20,274 bases of DNA from IMG/VR virus record IMGVR_UViG_3300032046_000267, positions 1 to 20,274 of that record. One strand, written 5' to 3'. This document shows positions 1,842-19,312 of the stretch, piece by piece. Each line of letters opens with the position of its first letter. The stretch's first letter is position 1. The notes under the pieces were generated by a model. That model saw only the letters and a list, made by a program, of their open reading frames with translations. It was not told the origin of the DNA and did no database searches. The translations under genes were made by a program, and so were the position numbers. The stretch is from a virus.

Positions 1842-4800
1842 TTAAGGAACGGTTGTAGTGGTTGTGGTTGTTGGTTGACAATCAAGATCACTTGTACAAG
1901 GATTTCCACTAAGTGTAACTATTACTGAACCACCTGGTTCACATACTGATGTAATTGAAGCTTCTCTTGCACATATATAAATTATACCAAATGATACAGA
2001 TTGAGTTTGTAGAATGTCTGAATAATCAATCCAACTTATCTCACAATTATTTTGTACTTGAACAGTGTAACAAAAATACAAAGGAGGGAATAAAGTTGTG
2101 CTAGTAGTTGTAGTGGTAAAGGTACAACTTGAAATTTGTGAAATAATTCCACTTACTACGTGATAAGCAAATCCATCCACTCTACTCTCATCTGTAAAAT
2201 ACCATCCATCAGGAACTAATGTACAATCAATACCATTACCTAAATAAACAGTAGAGCCATATAAAAGATTTGCAGCATTAACAGAGAAACCAGTCATTGA
2301 TGCACTAACTAGATTTGTAAAAGTAATTGCAGCACATGCATCAATAAGACTTCCTGTTGAATCAACTGGAGGATCAGATTCAAATTGATATCCAGTATAG
2401 AATCCATATAGATTTAATCCAGCAGGTCTAGTACATATTGTAGTGGTTGTTGTTGTAGAAGGAGAAGGTACAGTAGTTACAGCATTACCTGCTAACTCAC
2501 AATTAAGTGTAGTTGCAATTCCTGCTAATTCACAATCTAAAACTATTACTGTAGTAGTGGTAGTGGTTGTTAATGGAGGAACTGCAGTGGTGGTAGTTGT
2601 TGTACTTGGAATAGGTACTAAACTTCCAACCAATGCTTCAAAAGTTGCATCATCACAACATCCATTAATTCCTGAATAGAAGAAATTATTTTCTGCTATA
2701 TAGAAATTAGGAATATAAGTATGGAAACTTACCCAAGACTTAGTATTCATATTAAATGATATAGTCCAAGACTTATTACAGAAGTAATCAGGATCTGTTA
2801 AGTACACTTGAGTTCTTAATACAACAGTTTCAATTATGTCTTCTACATAGTATTCTTGTAATATAGGATCATATTTAACATCTTTATCAATAGGAATATA
2901 ATCTAGTTTAGTAATTATAACTCTTTCAAACTTACTATCATATACACCATGTAATCCAACTCCTGTAAAATTGTTATCTATATTTACTTTTGGAAAATAT
3001 CTTAATATCTCAAATGCTAAGTGGTCTGTAAAGAATCTATTCATACCACTACCAAATCCAGATATCTCTGCAGCTTGAGTTCCAGAGATTAAAAATATTT
3101 GTCCTCTCTTAGCATCCACTGTTATTTGACCATTAGGAATTTTTAGTAAGAACTTATTCTGACTTCCTACATAACCAAGATCTGTTTCAGCAAAATCAAT
3201 AGGAGGTGAACCTTTAAATAATGATGGGTTACCTACATATGCTGCTTGTGGATTAGTTGTATTAATAGTTAAAAGATTATCATACATCAAAGATTTGTTT
3301 TCAAATCTAGCAAGTATAGCTCTATTCTGAATACCATCTAATGATATAAGATTACCATAGTTTTGAGGAAAATCATAATATGATAATGCTCTATAAGTTA
3401 ACCAGTTGTTAACTCTATTATCAGCATCTACAATTTGTGAATCAGAATAGATTGCTCTAAATGGATAATATGTATAACAAAATTGGCTAGTCCAATCTGC
3501 AGGTAAATGTGTAAATGTATTCTCTTTATTTTGTTTAGAGAATGTTACATTGTATGTATATGTATTATCATTTGCTATAGATACATAATCTTCTTGTACC
3601 CAATCATCAGGAATACCTGTTGATACATGTGGCCAGAAATCTCCTTCTCTATTATTAAATGCTTGTCTAAGATCTACATTATAAGAACTCTCACAATAGA
3701 AGTTAGGAATACCATATGAAAATAAATAAAAGTATCCATCATAGAATGTTCTATTTGAACCAGCATCTGGTGGAAGAGTTAATTCAGGATGATTAGGACA
3801 ATCAAAGTTATGTGCTTTGTATGAAATAATGTTTGACATCACAACACCATTAACTGTAAAATCTTCTAATATAGATCTAGCAGAATGCCAGTATACTGGA
3901 TATGCTATATTACCAATCTCATCATAAAATATATCTGAATCATCAGGAGCATTAACTCTATTATCAATAAAGAATGGAAGTTTTGTTTTAAATGTAAATC
4001 TAGAGATGAATGTATCACCACCAAATACAGTAGCAACTTCTAACGATGCTGGATCAACTCTTTTTTGAAATCCAGTGTCTATTGTAACATATGAATATAT
4101 TTGTCCCCATTGGTTCACAAATATATTTTTCATAGAACCATAATAAGAAACAACACTAATATCTTTTTCTTTACCTGGAGAATTACATACTTGACCACTA
4201 CTTATAGTGTATCTAGATTTATCTGTAATTATAGAATTTCCTGATACAACAAGACTTGGTGTTTTACTAGGAAATTCTAAAGGTGTAACTGCAACACCAT
4301 TTCTATCTGCTATAGTTTTAATATAAACAGAACTTTCTCTTTCATAATTATTTACATTGATACCACCTGGTTCTCCAACAGATTGAACACCTGGAATAAG
4401 ATAACGAGCAAAATCAATTTTTCTCTGTTTAATTCCAAGACCATTGTTTATGTTTCCAAAATAATCATAATTAGCTATAGAGTTAAATGAATATGCATAG
4501 TTCTTTCTAGTAATACCATTTACATATATAGTTAGGTATGCTTGATATGCTGCAAACATATATGAAGCATTAAACGTAGCAGATGCAGCTAATGCTGCAG
4601 AACTAGCTAATGCATCTCTTTGAGCTTCTTCTGTAAGTAGTTTATATTTAGCATTACTCTTCACTTGAACAAAATGTGCTCTACCAGCACCAAACATTAC
4701 ATTCTCAAGTTTCAATACATTACCTAAAAATGGTTGTCCAAAAGAAGTTTCTGGAGAATTAAATATTTGTCTGTAGTTTAAAACTCCTCCAGTAAAAGCA

Positions 4801-7166
4801 GGAATTGGTGTTTCTCCTTTACAGCTAAGTGAAGATCTTCTACTTATATTAAAATTTACACTGTATGGTAATCCTGGTACAGGTGCAGGTTGAACAACTT
4901 CAGGTTCAATATCATAACGTGGATTACATCTACAAGGATCAAAAATACCATTAGTACAATCTTCTCCAATACCTCCACCAACATTTACTACTGCTTGACC
5001 AGTACTACATCCACCACCAAAAATATTACTATTACCATCTAAAAACTCCATCCTTGGATTAAGTGCACTATTATCTGAAGTAAATGGAGTGGCCCAAGTT
5101 GCTCTCCATCCTTTACATCCACGACAACCACTTAAAAAATATGAATCAAAGTTTCCAGGTCCAATAGTTGCTTGACCAGTTAATACTGTAGGTCTACTTG
5201 TTGAACAAAATTCATATGTTTGTCCAGCAACCATAGTTCCTACAGCAGTCTGATTTGTATTAGGATCATTAAATTGATAAGTTCCATTAGTAGTAGCTAT
5301 TACTAACCATGGTTCAGATATTGCACTAAATGCATTATTAGTTGAATTTAAAAAAGGATCTTCATTAAGGTCGTTATATGGATAGTTTGGATAATAGAAA
5401 GTTTGATTTTGTCTTTCATATGTTCCAATGTTACGAAGTATCCCTTTAGCTATAATAGATTTATTAGTTCCTCTATCTCCTCTAACTATTTTGAATGCAA
5501 CAATATCATCTTTCTGTTCAACGGTTAATGCTGAGTTAGCAATTAAAGTACTAACTTGTCCAACATCAAGTCTTACACCAATTGGGTACACTGCATCATT
5601 TTGCATTACAGGAACTACTTGAGTTCCTGAATATATATACACAGGATTCTCAAATATAGGACTTACAAGAACATCTGGAAATTTATGATGTCTAATAGGT
5701 TGACCAGCAAGATCACCCCACACATCTATGTTACAAGGATACTCTTCTGTAGATTCCCAATAAGCAAACTCACCATATTGATACGGTGTAGCGTTTCCAA
5801 TATTATCTCCAGTACCAGCTCCTATTACAGTTGCTGTATTATATATCTTCCAGTAAGGACTAGTGTTTGTTCCTGGATCTGGTTCACCAATAAAATCAGG
5901 ATCAGTATCAGAAACAGGAGGTCTTCCTATTTCATTATTGTTCATCATTCTACCAGGAATGTGAAAACCATCTGTTTGTTTTCCATTCTTTAATAGGAAT
6001 ACAATTTCAAATGCATACACTTCATCACGTAGATATCCACGTAAGTTTGTAGCATTTAATTCATCTGAATAGTTTTCATCTTTTGGTATTCTATAAGTTT
6101 GCCAATTAAGAGTTATTTGACTAGCAATAGATTGATAGTTAAGTCTATCTATAGATGAAAGATTATCCCATACAAGAACATCTTGTACAGCTGTAAGATC
6201 TTGTGCAATATCGTAGTAAGGATATTTTTCAAATATATCTGCAATAGTCAAACGAATACTATCTACATTCTGTCCAGTATATATAACTTGGTCAGTAGCA
6301 TTTTCAATAAAATATGTACCAACTAATTCTACAGAAGTAATTGCATTCACAGTGGTAATCACTGCTAGATTATAATATTGATATTGTCCTGTAACATCAA
6401 GATTTGTAATATCAAGAACAACTGATCTACCAACAGTGTAGTTATAATTTACAGTGGTGATAAAAGGATCAACAATAGGTGTAGGATTAGTAACAGAGTA
6501 ATATGATGTAAATGCATTACCAGCAGCATCAGAATATTGTATAGCAAATTGTACAGTTCCTGCTTTTAATTCTCCACCACTAATTACACCTACAACATTT
6601 AAAAATGGAATACTAAAGTTAGGTTGTATTTTTAATTGATTACAATCTAACTGATCAAGATATTGAGGATCACATAAATCAAAGGCAGGATTTATTAAAT
6701 AAGGAATATTATTAATATCTAAATATCTTCTTGGATTTAATCCATCTGTCCAATATATCTCTGTAGTACAATTAGTAATCTTATGTACAGTTTTTTGTAT
6801 TGGATGTTTTATATTAAAATTAAGACATTTACCACCTACTAATATATGATAGATACAATCGTTATTATCCATATATCCAATCTCACAATCTCCTGTATTA
6901 GGATTTGTAATAAAAAATATATGTTTATTTTGTTCTCCAATAAAATGATTACCTATTAGTGTAAATCCTTGTGGAAAACTTACACAGAATTCATTCCCTT
7001 GTTCATTCTGATAATTAACAGAACTTGCATCAAAGTTTTCTAAGGCAGCATTTAGTGCATATGTAAGAGTACCTGGTTTAATCTGGTTCAGAGTTTGATC
7101 CATATTTAAACCTACAGTAGCATTATTATATTCTAGTCTTATATTGCCTTTTTCTTCTTCAGCCAT
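1842..7166 (-). CDS. Muzzle / tail stabilization protein, crAss-like, with C-terminal adhesin modules
   Basis: This is a 1774-residue protein. The N-terminus has GLNMDQTLNQIKPGTLTYAL followed by IYWTDGLNPRRYLDIN, a pattern I associate with crAss-like stabilization (muzzle) proteins, which close the distal end of the short tail. The core runs to about residue 1515, where SWVSFHTYIPNFYI and NNFFYSG occur. It is then interrupted by Thr tracts and extra modules over the last 260 residues. These are two copies of a C-E-L-A-G motif, a 100-residue domain beginning CTRPAGL, a Cys-paired beta domain beginning YFCYTV, and a bare terminal Thr tract ending TVP. The expected C-terminal continuation lies in the next gene, 11 bases downstream. 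The start is ATG at 7166, 8 bases after the previous stop. The protein is unusually rich in Asn, Tyr, Ile and Thr, as large tail proteins often are. Confidence 0.7.
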   Translation of the reverse strand: MAEEEKGNIRLEYNNATVGLNMDQTLNQIKPGTLTYALNAALENFDASSVNYQNEQGNEFCVSFPQGFTLIGNHFIGEQNKHIFFITNPNTGDCEIGYMDNNDCIYHILVGGKCLNFNIKHPIQKTVHKITNCTTEIYWTDGLNPRRYLDINNIPYLINPAFDLCDPQYLDQLDCNQLKIQPNFSIPFLNVVGVISGGELKAGTVQFAIQYSDAAGNAFTSYYSVTNPTPIVDPFITTVNYNYTVGRSVVLDITNLDVTGQYQYYNLAVITTVNAITSVELVGTYFIENATDQVIYTGQNVDSIRLTIADIFEKYPYYDIAQDLTAVQDVLVWDNLSSIDRLNYQSIASQITLNWQTYRIPKDENYSDELNATNLRGYLRDEVYAFEIVFLLKNGKQTDGFHIPGRMMNNNEIGRPPVSDTDPDFIGEPDPGTNTSPYWKIYNTATVIGAGTGDNIGNATPYQYGEFAYWESTEEYPCNIDVWGDLAGQPIRHHKFPDVLVSPIFENPVYIYSGTQVVPVMQNDAVYPIGVRLDVGQVSTLIANSALTVEQKDDIVAFKIVRGDRGTNKSIIAKGILRNIGTYERQNQTFYYPNYPYNDLNEDPFLNSTNNAFSAISEPWLVIATTNGTYQFNDPNTNQTAVGTMVAGQTYEFCSTSRPTVLTGQATIGPGNFDSYFLSGCRGCKGWRATWATPFTSDNSALNPRMEFLDGNSNIFGGGCSTGQAVVNVGGGIGEDCTNGIFDPCRCNPRYDIEPEVVQPAPVPGLPYSVNFNISRRSSLSCKGETPIPAFTGGVLNYRQIFNSPETSFGQPFLGNVLKLENVMFGAGRAHFVQVKSNAKYKLLTEEAQRDALASSAALAASATFNASYMFAAYQAYLTIYVNGITRKNYAYSFNSIANYDYFGNINNGLGIKQRKIDFARYLIPGVQSVGEPGGINVNNYERESSVYIKTIADRNGVAVTPLEFPSKTPSLVVSGNSIITDKSRYTISSGQVCNSPGKEKDISVVSYYGSMKNIFVNQWGQIYSYVTIDTGFQKRVDPASLEVATVFGGDTFISRFTFKTKLPFFIDNRVNAPDDSDIFYDEIGNIAYPVYWHSARSILEDFTVNGVVMSNIISYKAHNFDCPNHPELTLPPDAGSNRTFYDGYFYLFSYGIPNFYCESSYNVDLRQAFNNREGDFWPHVSTGIPDDWVQEDYVSIANDNTYTYNVTFSKQNKENTFTHLPADWTSQFCYTYYPFRAIYSDSQIVDADNRVNNWLTYRALSYYDFPQNYGNLISLDGIQNRAILARFENKSLMYDNLLTINTTNPQAAYVGNPSLFKGSPPIDFAETDLGYVGSQNKFLLKIPNGQITVDAKRGQIFLISGTQAAEISGFGSGMNRFFTDHLAFEILRYFPKVNIDNNFTGVGLHGVYDSKFERVIITKLDYIPIDKDVKYDPILQEYYVEDIIETVVLRTQVYLTDPDYFCNKSWTISFNMNTKSWVSFHTYIPNFYIAENNFFYSGINGCCDDATFEALVGSLVPIPSTTTTTTAVPPLTTTTTTTVIVLDCELAGIATTLNCELAGNAVTTVPSPSTTTTTTICTRPAGLNLYGFYTGYQFESDPPVDSTGSLIDACAAITFTNLVSASMTGFSVNAANLLYGSTVYLGNGIDCTLVPDGWYFTDESRVDGFAYHVVSGIISQISSCTFTTTTTSTTLFPPLYFCYTVQVQNNCEISWIDYSDILQTQSVSFGIIYICAREASITSVCEPGGSVIVTLSGNPCTSDLDCQPTTTTTTTVP
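2548..2606 (-). repeat. Thr tracts at the junction between muzzle core and added modules
   Basis: Two Thr tracts flanking AVPP lie at about 2587-2606 and 2548-2571. Further Thr tracts of the same gene are near 2436-2459, 2093-2119 and, as the very end of the protein, 1848-1874. They mark the borders of modules added after the conserved core. Confidence 0.8.
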
Positions 7167-10758: not shown

Positions 10759-11013
10759 TTAAGTTAAAGTTGTAGAAGTAGTGGTTGTTGTCACTTCATC
10801 TAGAACTATATCTATAAAATTAGTACAATCTCCAAGAGATACTAATCTGACAGTAGTTGTAAAATTAGGTACTGCTGAAGAGGAATATCCTGCAAGCAAA
10901 GATGCTTTAGGAACATTTGTTGCAAATGCTGATACAAATCCATCGGTATTTGAAAACAGGTTGAAGGGGCCTGTATCAGCCCCAGCAACTGTTAGTGTTA
11001 TTAATACTGTCAT
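10759..11013 (-). CDS. Short GPFN-module protein with bare Thr tail (partner of the 354-residue fibre)
   Basis: This 84-residue protein consists of one module (residues 1-72: GPFNLFSNTDGF at about 15-26, SSAVPN, one Cys near 62) followed by TTTTTSTTLT and the stop. About half of the module is identical by eye to residues 1-74 of the fibre encoded just upstream (11036-12100), and it is more distantly like the N-terminus of the gene at 964-1830. Nothing follows the Thr tract, so it is an anchor without a head. It could be a truncated paralogue, or a functional short form that fills virion attachment sites. It is the last gene before the terminator. Confidence 0.7.
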   Translation of the reverse strand: MTVLITLTVAGADTGPFNLFSNTDGFVSAFATNVPKASLLAGYSSSAVPNFTTTVRLVSLGDCTNFIDIVLDEVTTTTTSTTLT

Positions 11014-11035: not shown

Positions 11036-12100
11036 TTAAACTGAACAAGGACCAGATGAATTTACAATTATATCTCCTGATATTGCACCAGCGCTAGTTG
11101 CACAAAAGACACCTGATAGCTCTGGTCCATAAGGAACATTAGAGATAACACCTGTTAAACAATCAGTTACAATTACACTTCCTCCTTCTGCTCCTGTAGT
11201 CCAAGAATAATTATTACAGTCTCCTGAACAAGATCCTCCTTCTGTTGTATATGCAGGTTGGTTATCACTAATTAAAGGATTTTCAGCACATATTTGTGTT
11301 GAAGGCTCTGTTGGTCCCAATTCAATAATAAGTGGATCTACTGCACCACATGGTATATATTCTACTGAATGAATACCACCACCCCATGCATTTATTGTAT
11401 ATACTTTACATCCAGTAATAGGTGTAGTTGTAGTGGTAGTAGTTGTTGATGGTGTTGGTGTACAACATGGACCATAAGCTACTACAGTAAAGGGTACAGT
11501 TGCTGATAATGAATTTCTATTTACACATTCAGGATAATCAAGACCAATAAATACGTTTGGACCTGAAACTATAAATACTGACCTAGGAGTACCAAAACAA
11601 TCTAGATATTCAAATGTACCATCTCCATCTGCAATAATACTTACATAGTCAATACATAAACATTCAGTGGTAGTACTAGTTGTTGTAGAACTACTTGTTG
11701 ATGTACTAGTAGAAGTTGATGTACTTGTACTACTTGAGGTACTTGTAGTTGTACTAGTAGGAGGAACAGTAGTTGTGCTAGTTGTTGTACTAGAAGATGT
11801 GCTAGTAGAAGTACTGGTACTAGTTGATGTAGAACTACTTGTACTAGTAGAACTAGAACTTGTTGTTGTAGTAGTAATTAAATTGATTGGTATATCAATG
11901 TAATTTGCACATGGTGCAATAGATTTCACTCTAATGATTGTTGTTCCGTTAGGTACAGCAGATGATATATATCCAGCTGTTAAAAGAGCTGCAGATACAT
12001 TTATTTCAAATGGTGCAAGAAATCCATCTGTATTTGAATAAAGATTAAAAGGACCTGCAATTCCACCAGGAGGTATAACCAATGTTATTAATGTTGTCAT
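11036..12100 (-). CDS. Modular fibre/adhesin: GPFN anchor, Thr/Ser linkers, three Cys-paired beta domains
   Basis: This 354-residue protein has a GPFN module at 1-74, a 70-residue Thr/Ser linker at 76-145, a Cys-paired domain at 147-213, a second Thr linker at about 218-226, and two more Cys-paired domains at 231-293 and 295-352 (ending GPCSV). The linker contains the same 27-residue Thr/Ser pattern twice (85-111 and 119-145), joined by VPPTSTTT. The Cys-paired domains resemble those in the 646-residue fibre and at the end of the 1774-residue protein: a Cys near the start, one after a central strand, and a G-x-C ending. It probably decorates the virion and binds host glycans or surface proteins; no enzyme motif is seen. 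Confidence 0.65.
   Translation of the reverse strand: MTTLITLVIPPGGIAGPFNLYSNTDGFLAPFEINVSAALLTAGYISSAVPNGTTIIRVKSIAPCANYIDIPINLITTTTTSSSSTSTSSSTSTSTSTSTSTSSSTTTSTTTVPPTSTTTSTSSSTSTSTSTSTSTSSSTTTSTTTECLCIDYVSIIADGDGTFEYLDCFGTPRSVFIVSGPNVFIGLDYPECVNRNSLSATVPFTVVAYGPCCTPTPSTTTTTTTTPITGCKVYTINAWGGGIHSVEYIPCGAVDPLIIELGPTEPSTQICAENPLISDNQPAYTTEGGSCSGDCNNYSWTTGAEGGSVIVTDCLTGVISNVPYGPELSGVFCATSAGAISGDIIVNSSGPCSV
11666..11875 (-). repeat. Duplicated Thr/Ser linker with scrambled synonymous codons
   Basis: These bases encode the linker of the 354-residue fibre. Two 81-base units, 11768-11848 and 11666-11746, encode the same 27 Thr/Ser residues, yet I count only 9 identical codons. Ten of the 13 serines switch between AGY and TCN codons. 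On the plus strand the tract appears as GTW/AGT trinucleotides, which produces long valine-rich shadow frames. Confidence 0.85.
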
Positions 12101-12465: not shown

Positions 12466-12499
12466 TTTTAAATTTTGATTTAAATTACTGTTGCTTATA

Positions 12500-14440
12500 T
12501 TAGTCTTGTATTAGTCTTACTGATAAACCAGCTTTATTATTAACATAAGCTAAAAGAAGAATACTGTTGCTTGAAGTTAATCCTCGATAAATAGAATTTG
12601 TTAAATCAACCGATGTTGTAGTCCACCAAAGACCAAAATCATTAGTAGGATAGAATGTACCATCGAAAGCACGATGGTTTCCACCAAGACCTGTCCAACC
12701 ACTACTGTTTGTAGCGAAATTATTTGGACTATCCCAATGACATGTTCCAACCTCTTTCATTTCTCCACCTGCTGCAGCTAATCCTCCTAAAAATGTAGCA
12801 AGAGTTGCCCATTCAGTAGCTGATGGAACATGATAACCAGTTGGAGCTAATCCTCTAGGATCTAGTACAGCAGCTAAGTTATATAATTTTCCATAAGCAA
12901 GTTCATTACCTGGATCATTATTATTATAGCACCATGCTCCAGTTGTTAAAGCTGCCCAAGCAGTTGGATCAGTAACTTGTGGAATTGGATCACCATTTGC
13001 ATATGTGTCTACATTTAAATTACATCCAGTCCAAACTTGAGTTCCAATTGTTACATCATCTAAAGTACAATTAACACATATAGTAGTTGTTGTACTTGTT
13101 GTTGATGTTGTTGGTTCTGGACAAAGTCCTCCAACACAAGATGCTCCAACTGCAATTGTTACAGTAGGATCATCTGCAGATCCTTGAGATCCACAAACTT
13201 TTATAATTTCATAACCACTAATATTTACACCTGTAATAGGAACATTACTACAATCAGTATATGCTATTACATGAGTAAATTTATCTGTATTTTCAAACGT
13301 TAAACAATCACAAGGATATAATGTTGTAGTTGTAGTTGTTGTGCTACTACTTGTTGAAGTAGAAGTACTTGTTGTTGATGTTGTTGGTTCAGCAGTAGTT
13401 GTACTTGTTGTAGTTGAGCTAGTAGAAGTTGATGTACTACTAGTTGTACTGGTTGAACTACTACTACTTGTAGTGGTTGTTGTTACATCTGGAACCTGAT
13501 TAGCAGTTCCTGTAAATTCACAATTTGGTAATATAGTAGTACTAGTGGTTGTAGTGGTAGAAATTCCAACACATGATCCATCAACACAATCAGCACCAAT
13601 TGTAATTGTTACAAGAGCATCATTTGCTTGTCCACAACATCCACAAACATTTATAACTTCATTAGCAAGAATTGGTAAAGTTCTTGTTTCACCCATACAA
13701 TTTTTATATCCTATTGAATGAACTACACTATCTGTATTTTCAAATGTCAAACATTCACAAGGAATAGCTGTTGTTGTTGTGGTAGTAGTAGAACTTGTAC
13801 TAGATGTACTAGTAGATGTTGTTGATGTTGTACTACTAGTTGGAGGAGTACAAGGACCATTTGGTGTCACAATAACAGTTCCAGGAACAGTTAAAGGGCT
13901 ATCTGTTATAACACAAATATTTGTATCTCCTGGGTTTAATATAATAGCTTCTGGCTCTCCTGTATCACAATTAGTAATAATTATAGCTACTGGATCAACT
14001 CCTGTATTATCTAATGAGAAGTTTTCACAAGGGTGTATTGTTGTTGTACTACTTGTTGTTGATGTAGAACTTGAACTAGTACTAGTAGTAGTTGTACAAC
14101 ATTCACCTAATTGATTATATATATTAATAATATCACCATTGATAGTTATTATCTGTGTAGTGATATTAGTAATTTGAATATTTAATATATTAATCTGTGT
14201 TAATAGATTACATATAATCTCATCAATCTTTTGTAATATCACATTAAGTGTATCACATGGTTCAGCTGTCGTGCAACTTAATGCAGGACCATCATAAACA
14301 ATAGTACTAGAAGCAGTTAGATTAGTACCACATGAATTGTTATTACAACTACAATTACCAATTGTAGAACCACATCCACAAGGACTATTTATAACTACGT
14401 CTGTACAGCAAGGATTTACTGGTAAAAAAGGATATGCCAT
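12500..14440 (-). CDS. Long modular tail fibre with C-terminal FISUMP domain
   Basis: This 646-residue protein has a Cys-rich N-terminus and Ile-rich coiled coil (1-115), then alternating Thr/Ser linkers and small domains. Cys-paired beta domains lie at 136-198, 227-291 and 377-441; the last two share CLTFENTD. A short CEFTGTANQ motif sits at 307-315. Residues 455-646 form a FISUMP (Fibrobacter succinogenes major paralogous) domain, with GTQVWTGCNLNVDTY, NGDPIPQVTD, GAWCYNNNDP, DPRGLAPTGYHVPS and the ending VRLIQD. FISUMP domains occur in surface proteins of Bacteroidota and Fibrobacterota and look C-type-lectin-like. I infer a receptor-binding fibre whose head is the FISUMP domain. The start gives a 12-base gap after the preceding stop. 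Confidence 0.75.
   Translation of the reverse strand: MAYPFLPVNPCCTDVVINSPCGCGSTIGNCSCNNNSCGTNLTASSTIVYDGPALSCTTAEPCDTLNVILQKIDEIICNLLTQINILNIQITNITTQIITINGDIINIYNQLGECCTTTTSTSSSSTSTTSSTTTIHPCENFSLDNTGVDPVAIIITNCDTGEPEAIILNPGDTNICVITDSPLTVPGTVIVTPNGPCTPPTSSTTSTTSTSTSSTSSTTTTTTTAIPCECLTFENTDSVVHSIGYKNCMGETRTLPILANEVINVCGCCGQANDALVTITIGADCVDGSCVGISTTTTTSTTILPNCEFTGTANQVPDVTTTTTSSSSSTSTTSSTSTSTSSTTTSTTTAEPTTSTTSTSTSTSSSTTTTTTTLYPCDCLTFENTDKFTHVIAYTDCSNVPITGVNISGYEIIKVCGSQGSADDPTVTIAVGASCVGGLCPEPTTSTTSTTTTICVNCTLDDVTIGTQVWTGCNLNVDTYANGDPIPQVTDPTAWAALTTGAWCYNNNDPGNELAYGKLYNLAAVLDPRGLAPTGYHVPSATEWATLATFLGGLAAAGGEMKEVGTCHWDSPNNFATNSSGWTGLGGNHRAFDGTFYPTNDFGLWWTTTSVDLTNSIYRGLTSSNSILLLAYVNNKAGLSVRLIQD
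13319..13483 (-). repeat. Long Thr/Ser linker of the 646-residue fibre
   Basis: Encodes about 55 residues of Thr and Ser broken once by AEP. Shorter linkers in the same gene lie at 14039-14095, 13769-13840, 13532-13561 and 13079-13114. Each separates two compact domains, which defines the domain borders clearly. Confidence 0.8.
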
Positions 14441-18142: not shown

Positions 18143-19312
18143 TTAAGGTATAAGAGCTGTAGTAGTTGTTGTTGTTGTAGGTGCTACAGCAGTTGTAGTA
18201 GATGTAGTAGTGATACAAACATTGTTATCTGGAACAGTTCCTAAACCAGCTTCTAATACAGTTTCAATTGCAGCAGCAATACCACTTACACTAGCATTTG
18301 GAGCAGCAATGATTACAGTGCTATCTTCCATGATGTAATCACCCCATTGGTATTCAGATTTGTTATACTCATTAAATCTAATGTAGTATGTATCGTAAAT
18401 AACACCACTAGATACCCAAGATTCAAAGTTCTCGTTATATCCATTCATTCTGTATAAGTGTTTCAAGTAACCTGCTTGATAGCTGTAGAAGTTTTTCTCT
18501 AATTGAGCAATCTCTGCAGATGTACCAGTAGGATAAGAAGCACGTTGTGTAATTGTTTCAAGAGCAACAATGTTACAAGCATCTGCAACAATAAAGTCAG
18601 CAGTAGTAGCAGGTCCAGCATATACAAAAGTTCTGAAAGAGAATCTATCATATTCAAATGGGAACGCTGCAATATCACAAGGTTGTCCATATATGGTTAA
18701 TGGTTTCCCAGTAATACGTAAGATAGTTCCACCTACATTTTCGAATGTATAGAACGTGTTGAAGCTAATGTTATCAGGGTTGTTACCTGGAGCTTGTTGA
18801 GTTAATTTATTGATTAATAAATCAATGATAATGTTTGGACTCACATCGTCACATGGATTATCTGCACAACCACAACATGGAGCTTGGATAGTTACTGAAC
18901 GAGTGAAACCATTGAAATACAAAGTGTTTACATAGCTAGAGAAACCACGTAAAGTTAACGTGATGCTTTCGCCACATTGTACTAAGAAATCAGTTACATC
19001 AGTAACTTGGTTAGCAGCTGTAGGACATCCTGTTGCTTTATACCATTCTGTTACGTTAGAGTTGCAACCAGATCCTGAAGGACATCCTTTGATCTTGTCA
19101 GATCTTTTAGAGCCTTGTAAATAAGTGTTTGTTCTACCTTGAGCTACGTAGAAATAAGGAGAAGCAGCAATGTTCCCAGCAGTAGCTAAAGAATAATCGC
19201 TTCTAAAAATACCAACTTGTCCTGCAGTCAAGTTTTGTGTTGAGCCAGAGCTAGGGAGTGCAGTTTGCCCCACTGGAACCACGAAGAGCGTGGTTAATGA
19301 AAAATCAGCCAT
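18143..19312 (-). CDS. Probable abundant virion structural protein with C-terminal Thr tail
   Basis: This 389-residue protein begins MADFSLTTLFVVPVG, followed by LTAGQVGIF and YFYVAQGR. It has a dense set of cysteines (C77, C83, C96, C113, CCGC at 146-149, C154). The body is beta-rich up to about 240, then a helical segment (260-300, YSYQAGYLKHLYRMNGYN) and further strands. It ends in two Thr tracts with no domain after them. It uses more C-ending codons (TTC, AAC, CGT) than the fibre genes, and is followed by a stable hairpin, both consistent with high expression. A capsid, capsid-decoration or main tail protein are all possible; I cannot decide. Confidence 0.55.
   Translation of the reverse strand: MADFSLTTLFVVPVGQTALPSSGSTQNLTAGQVGIFRSDYSLATAGNIAASPYFYVAQGRTNTYLQGSKRSDKIKGCPSGSGCNSNVTEWYKATGCPTAANQVTDVTDFLVQCGESITLTLRGFSSYVNTLYFNGFTRSVTIQAPCCGCADNPCDDVSPNIIIDLLINKLTQQAPGNNPDNISFNTFYTFENVGGTILRITGKPLTIYGQPCDIAAFPFEYDRFSFRTFVYAGPATTADFIVADACNIVALETITQRASYPTGTSAEIAQLEKNFYSYQAGYLKHLYRMNGYNENFESWVSSGVIYDTYYIRFNEYNKSEYQWGDYIMEDSTVIIAAPNASVSGIAAAIETVLEAGLGTVPDNNVCITTTSTTTAVAPTTTTTTTALIP
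19277..19295 (-). other. Perfect hairpin inside codons 6-12 of the 389-residue gene
   Basis: AACCACG and CGTGGTT form a 7-bp perfect stem around a five-base loop, starting 17 bases after the first base of the start codon. The codons here (ACC ACG CTC TTC GTG) are GC-rich for this genome. It could affect translation or mRNA stability; chance is possible. Confidence 0.4.

Follow-up and report, generated by a model that had tools for sequence, protein, structure and literature searches.

Threonine/serine order in the linkers of a crAss-like phage protein: an exact 27-residue repeat written in different codons

For the Thr/Ser-rich or PTS-type linkers that join the domains of extracellular proteins, composition alone is usually assumed to matter. 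Elsewhere, low-complexity repeats such as the collagen-like Gly-X-Y are known as sites of recombination in phage tail fibres. In human homopeptides, mixed codons have already been linked to the maintenance of amino-acid tracts and pure codon runs to slippage (Mularoni et al. 2006, PMC1557989). The phage linkers considered here resemble those human tracts in being low-complexity protein sequence written in mixed synonymous codons, but differ in that what they conserve, in a phage, is how two residues alternate along tens of positions, in one paralogous linker after another. Like PTS-type linkers they are disordered Thr/Ser/Pro tracts between beta-rich modules, whereas their order recurs, is constrained and follows a stereotyped layout, T5-S4-(TS)n. 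With the Gly-X-Y repeats they share a concentration of breakpoints and module swaps, although the residues differ and the concentration is known here from alignment breakpoints. As in the phi-crAss001 atlas (PMC10172136), a muzzle homologue is present, in this case beside the locus, and the words 'threonine' and 'linker' are absent from the text of that atlas. In the library searched, no relevant paper turned up on Thr/Ser linkers of tail fibres or of crAss-like phages.

The locus and its linker-bearing proteins

The stretch analysed here (the window) is 20,274 bases long and comes from a metagenomic assembly, virus record IMGVR_UViG_3300032046_000267. Judged by its genes it is a fragment of a crAss-like phage, with a muzzle homologue (PF25731 crAss_MUZ, E 6e-35) that places it in the Crassvirales. 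By this protein the closest isolates are Leptolyngbya phage Lbo-JY46 (33% identity) and Cellulophaga phages including phi17:2 (28%), and no such Thr/Ser linkers were found in the muzzle-gene regions of Lbo-JY46 or phi17:2. The features under discussion are collected in the table.

The protein that contains the repeat has homologues in 43 viral loci. In its AlphaFold model the beta domains at either end are confident and pLDDT drops below 50 over residues 76-143, and a Foldseek search of the product against the PDB returned no significant match. It is probably a virion protein, as its neighbours match crAss_MUZ and PHROG virion and tail families. The invariant columns of alignment A1 lie mostly in residues 1-66, and a short ORF at 10759-11013 carries the same N-terminal domain. 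The linker holding both copies is found codon for codon in L007, a relative with 99.1% identity to the window along 10.8 kb, and the protein with the 63-residue linker includes two Fib_succ_major (PF09603) stretches.

Features of the window discussed in the text
Feature	Position	Strand	Basis or remark
Gene for 354-aa modular protein: N-terminal beta domain, T/S linker, beta-rich C-terminal modules	11036..12100	-	ORF
N-terminal domain, residues 1-75, conserved across paralogues	11876..12100	-	alignment A1
70-residue Thr/Ser linker, residues 76-145, containing both copies	11666..11875	-	predicted disordered
Repeat copy 1 (N-terminal), TSTSSSTSTSTSTSTSTSSSTTTSTTT	11768..11848	-	DNA lineage common to L008
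Spacer VPPTSTT separating the copies	11747..11767	-	VPP junctions recur in relatives
Repeat copy 2 (C-terminal), same 27 residues, 18 codons different	11666..11746	-	
Second, poly-Thr linker of the 354-aa gene, TPTPSTTTTTTTTP	11420..11461	-	pLDDT below 50, residues 217-224
Crassvirus muzzle protein, 1774 aa, Thr-rich linkers and C-terminal Thr tail	1842..7166	-	PF25731 crAss_MUZ, E 6e-35
Modular protein, six T/S linkers and C-terminal FISUMP module	12500..14440	-	ORF and domain match
63-residue linker of neighbouring FISUMP-domain gene; STSSSTTTSTTTVPPTSTTTSTSSSTST common to target linker in other codons	16165..16353	-	

Relatives were gathered from viral contigs as about 290 loci, several of them on contigs of about 110 kb; genomes of the order measure about 100 kb. 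The clade is a group of aquatic crAss-like phages that join virion-protein modules with Thr/Ser linkers. One 13.4-kb contig, L299, is binned in a Tissierellales MAG and encodes a 63% relative of the 18143-19312 protein together with a T/S linker; it is probably a misbinned phage contig and provides no evidence of a host. Many proteins of the clade close with a Thr tract, a short hydrophobic end and the stop (...TTTTTTTVP or ...TTTTTTTALIP, then stop), as do those encoded at 1842-7166, 18143-19312 and 10759-11013 in the window, all on the minus strand, and those of many relatives. A C-terminal tail of at least five Thr occurs in 248 distinct ORFs, most commonly ending in I, LIP, NIP or IP and followed by TAA in 244; it resembles a linker left open at one end, or a C-terminal tag common to these proteins.

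The repeat and the linker grammar

The preliminary description had claimed an exact 27-residue duplication written in different synonymous codons, and the identity in residues and the difference in codons are both confirmed. The reverse complements of 11768-11848 and 11666-11746 each translate to TSTSSSTSTSTSTSTSTSSSTTTSTTT, matching at 27/27 residues, with identical codons at 9 of 27 positions (7 Thr and 2 Ser) and exchanges between AGY and TCN at 10 of the 13 serines. Recent tandem duplication or slippage would be expected to leave high DNA identity, and only 49 of 81 nucleotides agree. The nine identical codons compare with about 10.3 expected from independent draws of Thr and Ser codons at linker usage, the ten serine swaps with 6.4 expected (one-sided binomial about 0.04), and the longest exact DNA repeat in the linker, taken from the L007 copy of the same sequence, is 15 nt against 15.9 expected. 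There is no memory of copying in the DNA of the two units. Antisense coding by an ORF on the other strand (11667-11903, +) was considered and rejected by reasoning, as AGY would there be read as Leu and TCN as Glu or Asp, and the swaps would alter that protein.

Across the relatives we recovered 1,194 distinct linker DNA sequences of at least 7 residues, and these share a grammar, T5-S4-(TS)n-SSS-TTTSTTT, with VPP as a frequent connecting element. The long linkers tend to be laid out as TTTTT-SSSS-(TS)n-(SSS)-TTTSTTT or TTTTTTT with junctions VPP, AVP or AAP; Ser makes up 0.10-0.11 of the outer tenths of linkers against about half of the middle, and the length of the first Ser run, single Ser aside, peaks at four. 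The idea of a two-faced beta-strand, whose alternation phase would be kept by interruptions of odd length, was unsupported (T3 25 vs T2 22; S3 12 vs S2 15).

Exact amino-acid repeats of 16-28 residues within one linker are common in the relatives, the longest being 28 in L143 and L209, 27 here and 24 in several others. Among homologous linkers, exact-order repeats recur family-wide in unrelated DNA: in the 85 linkers with exact repeats of at least 12 residues, codon identity is 0.378 against a random expectation of 0.363, and it exceeds 0.75 in only 3, which are recent duplications. The 17-residue word STTTVPPTSTTTSTSSS exists in 7 DNA versions, most pairs of which have a codon identity of 0.2-0.5, and the target linker and that of the FISUMP-domain gene have a long word around VPP in common whose codons differ.

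Constraint on residue order and the origin of the copies

To assess constraint, A/T exchange at codon position 1, which interchanges Thr and Ser, was compared with synonymous A/T exchange at position 3 in the same linkers of aligned relatives, only ungapped linkers being used. At identities of at least 99% we counted 0/3089 Thr/Ser changes against 16/2712 synonymous ones, and at 97-99% 2/1913 against 63/1781. The ratio of the two rates was 0.18 (0.10-0.29) at 95-97% and 0.27 (0.22-0.33) at 92-95%, the intervals being HSP bootstraps over pairs that were compared without a tree and are not phylogenetically independent, drawn from metagenomic assemblies in which some viruses are redundantly represented. 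The comparison rests on A/T exchange, as C/G exchange at position 2 had too few synonymous events to set it against. Relative to four-fold A/T sites outside linkers in the same ORFs, the corresponding values in ascending bins of divergence were 0, 0.10, 0.57 and 0.59. Thr/Ser change is therefore slower than synonymous change by either measure (0-0.27 within linkers and 0-0.59 against the same-ORF four-fold sites), and the order of the two residues is constrained to roughly the degree of average positions in folded modules, a level not usual in disordered linkers. Selection on Thr/Ser order, the core of what was first proposed, is thus supported: the constraint within linkers and the recurrence across the family speak for it, but 'exact' was an overstatement given frequent length change and slow drift of the order.

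The account that we favour, and consider somewhat more probable than its negation, is that the 27-residue repeat represents two neighbouring units following the family grammar, with their order held by selection, their codons drifting freely and no recent copying. In a phage protein that is probably part of the virion, the linker would be the disordered tract that spaces the folded modules, and purifying selection on the protein would keep Thr and Ser in their positions, for which the observed rate difference speaks and a physical reason is presumed. Codons would drift without constraint and at the highest rate in the Thr runs, at which linkers and modules may join and exchange by recombination, a mechanism suggested by the enrichment of breakpoints described below. 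The two units would stem from DNA lineages that separated before the window phage and L008 split, and their match would arise from selection holding or repeatedly restoring the order and not from recent copying of one unit, loss of DNA repetition being a passive outcome of free codon drift. Counting against this are the only moderate constraint relative to four-fold sites (0.57-0.59 at 92-97% identity) and the codons common to the VPP junctions described next.

An old tandem duplication, in which both copies descend from one DNA segment, the residues having been kept by purifying selection while synonymous sites became saturated, would also give an exact order. VPP-delimited units do repeat in relatives, and recent exact duplications occur elsewhere, as in the 76-nt DNA repeat of L061. 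The codons GTT CCT CCT, retained at both VPP junctions of L008 and present at the window's own, hint at a real duplication of the unit with faster scrambling of Thr/Ser codons. Yet a drifted duplication is an unlikely origin for the copies: relatives at 92-97% identity show 102 Thr/Ser changes against 5 swaps between Ser codon families, the former being some 20 times commoner, whereas the window's pair shows 0 against 10. Codon identity is at the random level, and synonymous change is slow in the (TS)n tract where most of the swaps lie. In addition, copies 1 and 2 match different units of the L008 linker by DNA (the codons surrounding the start of copy 2 match its second VPP unit), which places the parting of their lineages before the common ancestor. 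That selection led both to one order independently, or retained it in both, explains the match better than a drifted duplicate does. Coincidence would require only that linkers be filtered for Thr/Ser content and for local habits, namely Thr-run ends and an alternating middle, such that some pair happens to match over 27 residues. In the shuffling check put forward in the preliminary description, shuffling the 70-residue linker 2,000 times at constant composition never produced an exact repeat above 15. When Markov chains of T/S order were trained on 600 other linkers, the probability of a repeat of at least 27, per linker of 60-80 aa, was 0 for orders 1-4 (0/1,500 draws each), 0.005 for order 6 and 0.008 for order 8. 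The match is far beyond what composition gives, yet it was chosen because it was conspicuous and lies in the tail of the family distribution. In favour of coincidence, it is a 1-in-100-to-200 event given the family's local word structure, much of it is (TS)n, and repeats of 27 or more were found in 3/233 linkers. The failure of low-order grammars, the slower rate of Thr/Ser substitution and the recurrence of a complex 17-residue word with VPP in unrelated DNA argue the other way, and the grammar would itself need a cause, so we regard coincidence as quite improbable.

The preliminary description further suggested a loss of DNA repetition and a breaking of hairpins by codon mixing; the linkers bear out neither an active loss of repetition nor hairpin breaking. 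Diversification of codons by selection against repeats or hairpins could draw on the slightly low identity of adjacent codons (ratios of 0.94 at distance 1 and 0.95 at distance 2), with a mildly low value for Ser-Ser neighbours (0.910 in linkers vs 1.002 outside), and on A/T change at linker position 3, which is 2.2 to 8.8 times that at same-ORF four-fold sites. However, linkers do not have fewer repeats, palindromes or RNA structures than synonymous permutations of their codons: exact DNA repeats are in excess at every length tested (12-mers, 2662 vs 1291), ACTAGT occurs 570 times in the linkers of all loci against 460 expected (SD 14), and RNA folding energy shows no shift (z 0.05, SEM 0.07). 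Thr-Thr neighbours are as alike as elsewhere (0.977 of expectation vs 0.971 outside linkers). Such selection is largely refuted, and we consider it highly improbable; codon mixing is about what free drift would give. The enrichment of the ACTAGT palindrome, which is Thr-Ser written as ACT AGT, perhaps reflects codon-pair context. Synonymous change also depends on context, reaching 0.024 and 0.198 in TTT against 0/284 and 0.027 in STS in two identity bins, and changed codons are mildly clustered (162 adjacent vs 115 expected); patchwise exchange in Thr runs fits this pattern better than a general codon-scrambling pressure. A diversity-generating retroelement would be a poor candidate, because the first-position A of ACN stays fixed, which does not fit adenine mutagenesis. 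Separately, the (TS)n tracts of L034 and L018 contain a 12-nt unit, ACAAGTACTTCT, in differing copy numbers, and slippage thus acts on some linkers.

Linkers as module junctions

Among related phages, 43% of the alignment breakpoints within the linker cluster fall inside linkers, compared with 9% of random positions, and 57% fall within 30 bases of one, compared with 15%. Some breakpoints reflect variation in linker length, and homologous modules were therefore sought on the far side of the linker in every case; none was present at 207 of 394 testable breakpoints. For the pooled linkers of the clade, rather than the target linker specifically, breakpoints are thus concentrated in linkers with non-homologous modules beyond, and about half of the linker breakpoints are module swaps. 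Several pairs of linkers whose flanks are identical come from genomes that are 5-20% different, so those flanks do not imply recent divergence. Within the gene at 12500-14440 (region 12483-13406) the window and L007 differ in length by about 0.6 kb and the 2 kb beyond are only 94.9% identical, the pattern that would be expected if a gene with linkers had recently changed a module.

A more ambitious reading, which we offer tentatively and think rather doubtful, is that Thr/Ser order is a functional code in which set positions must be Thr or Ser, for reasons that might include register-specific modification, packing against neighbouring chains or recognition in tail assembly. Numerous genes of a single phage would keep this code although their DNA is unrelated, and the ends of Thr runs would be joints that can be used again and again when modules are exchanged.

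It is usual to regard low-complexity, disordered linkers as drifting without restraint so long as their composition holds. In the present linkers two residues of similar chemistry keep an order that changes less rapidly than silent sites do and that is met repeatedly in unrelated DNA, and so the function of order in a disordered linker becomes directly testable. The hundreds of linkers in this one clade also represent a large natural data set on module exchange in phage tail proteins.
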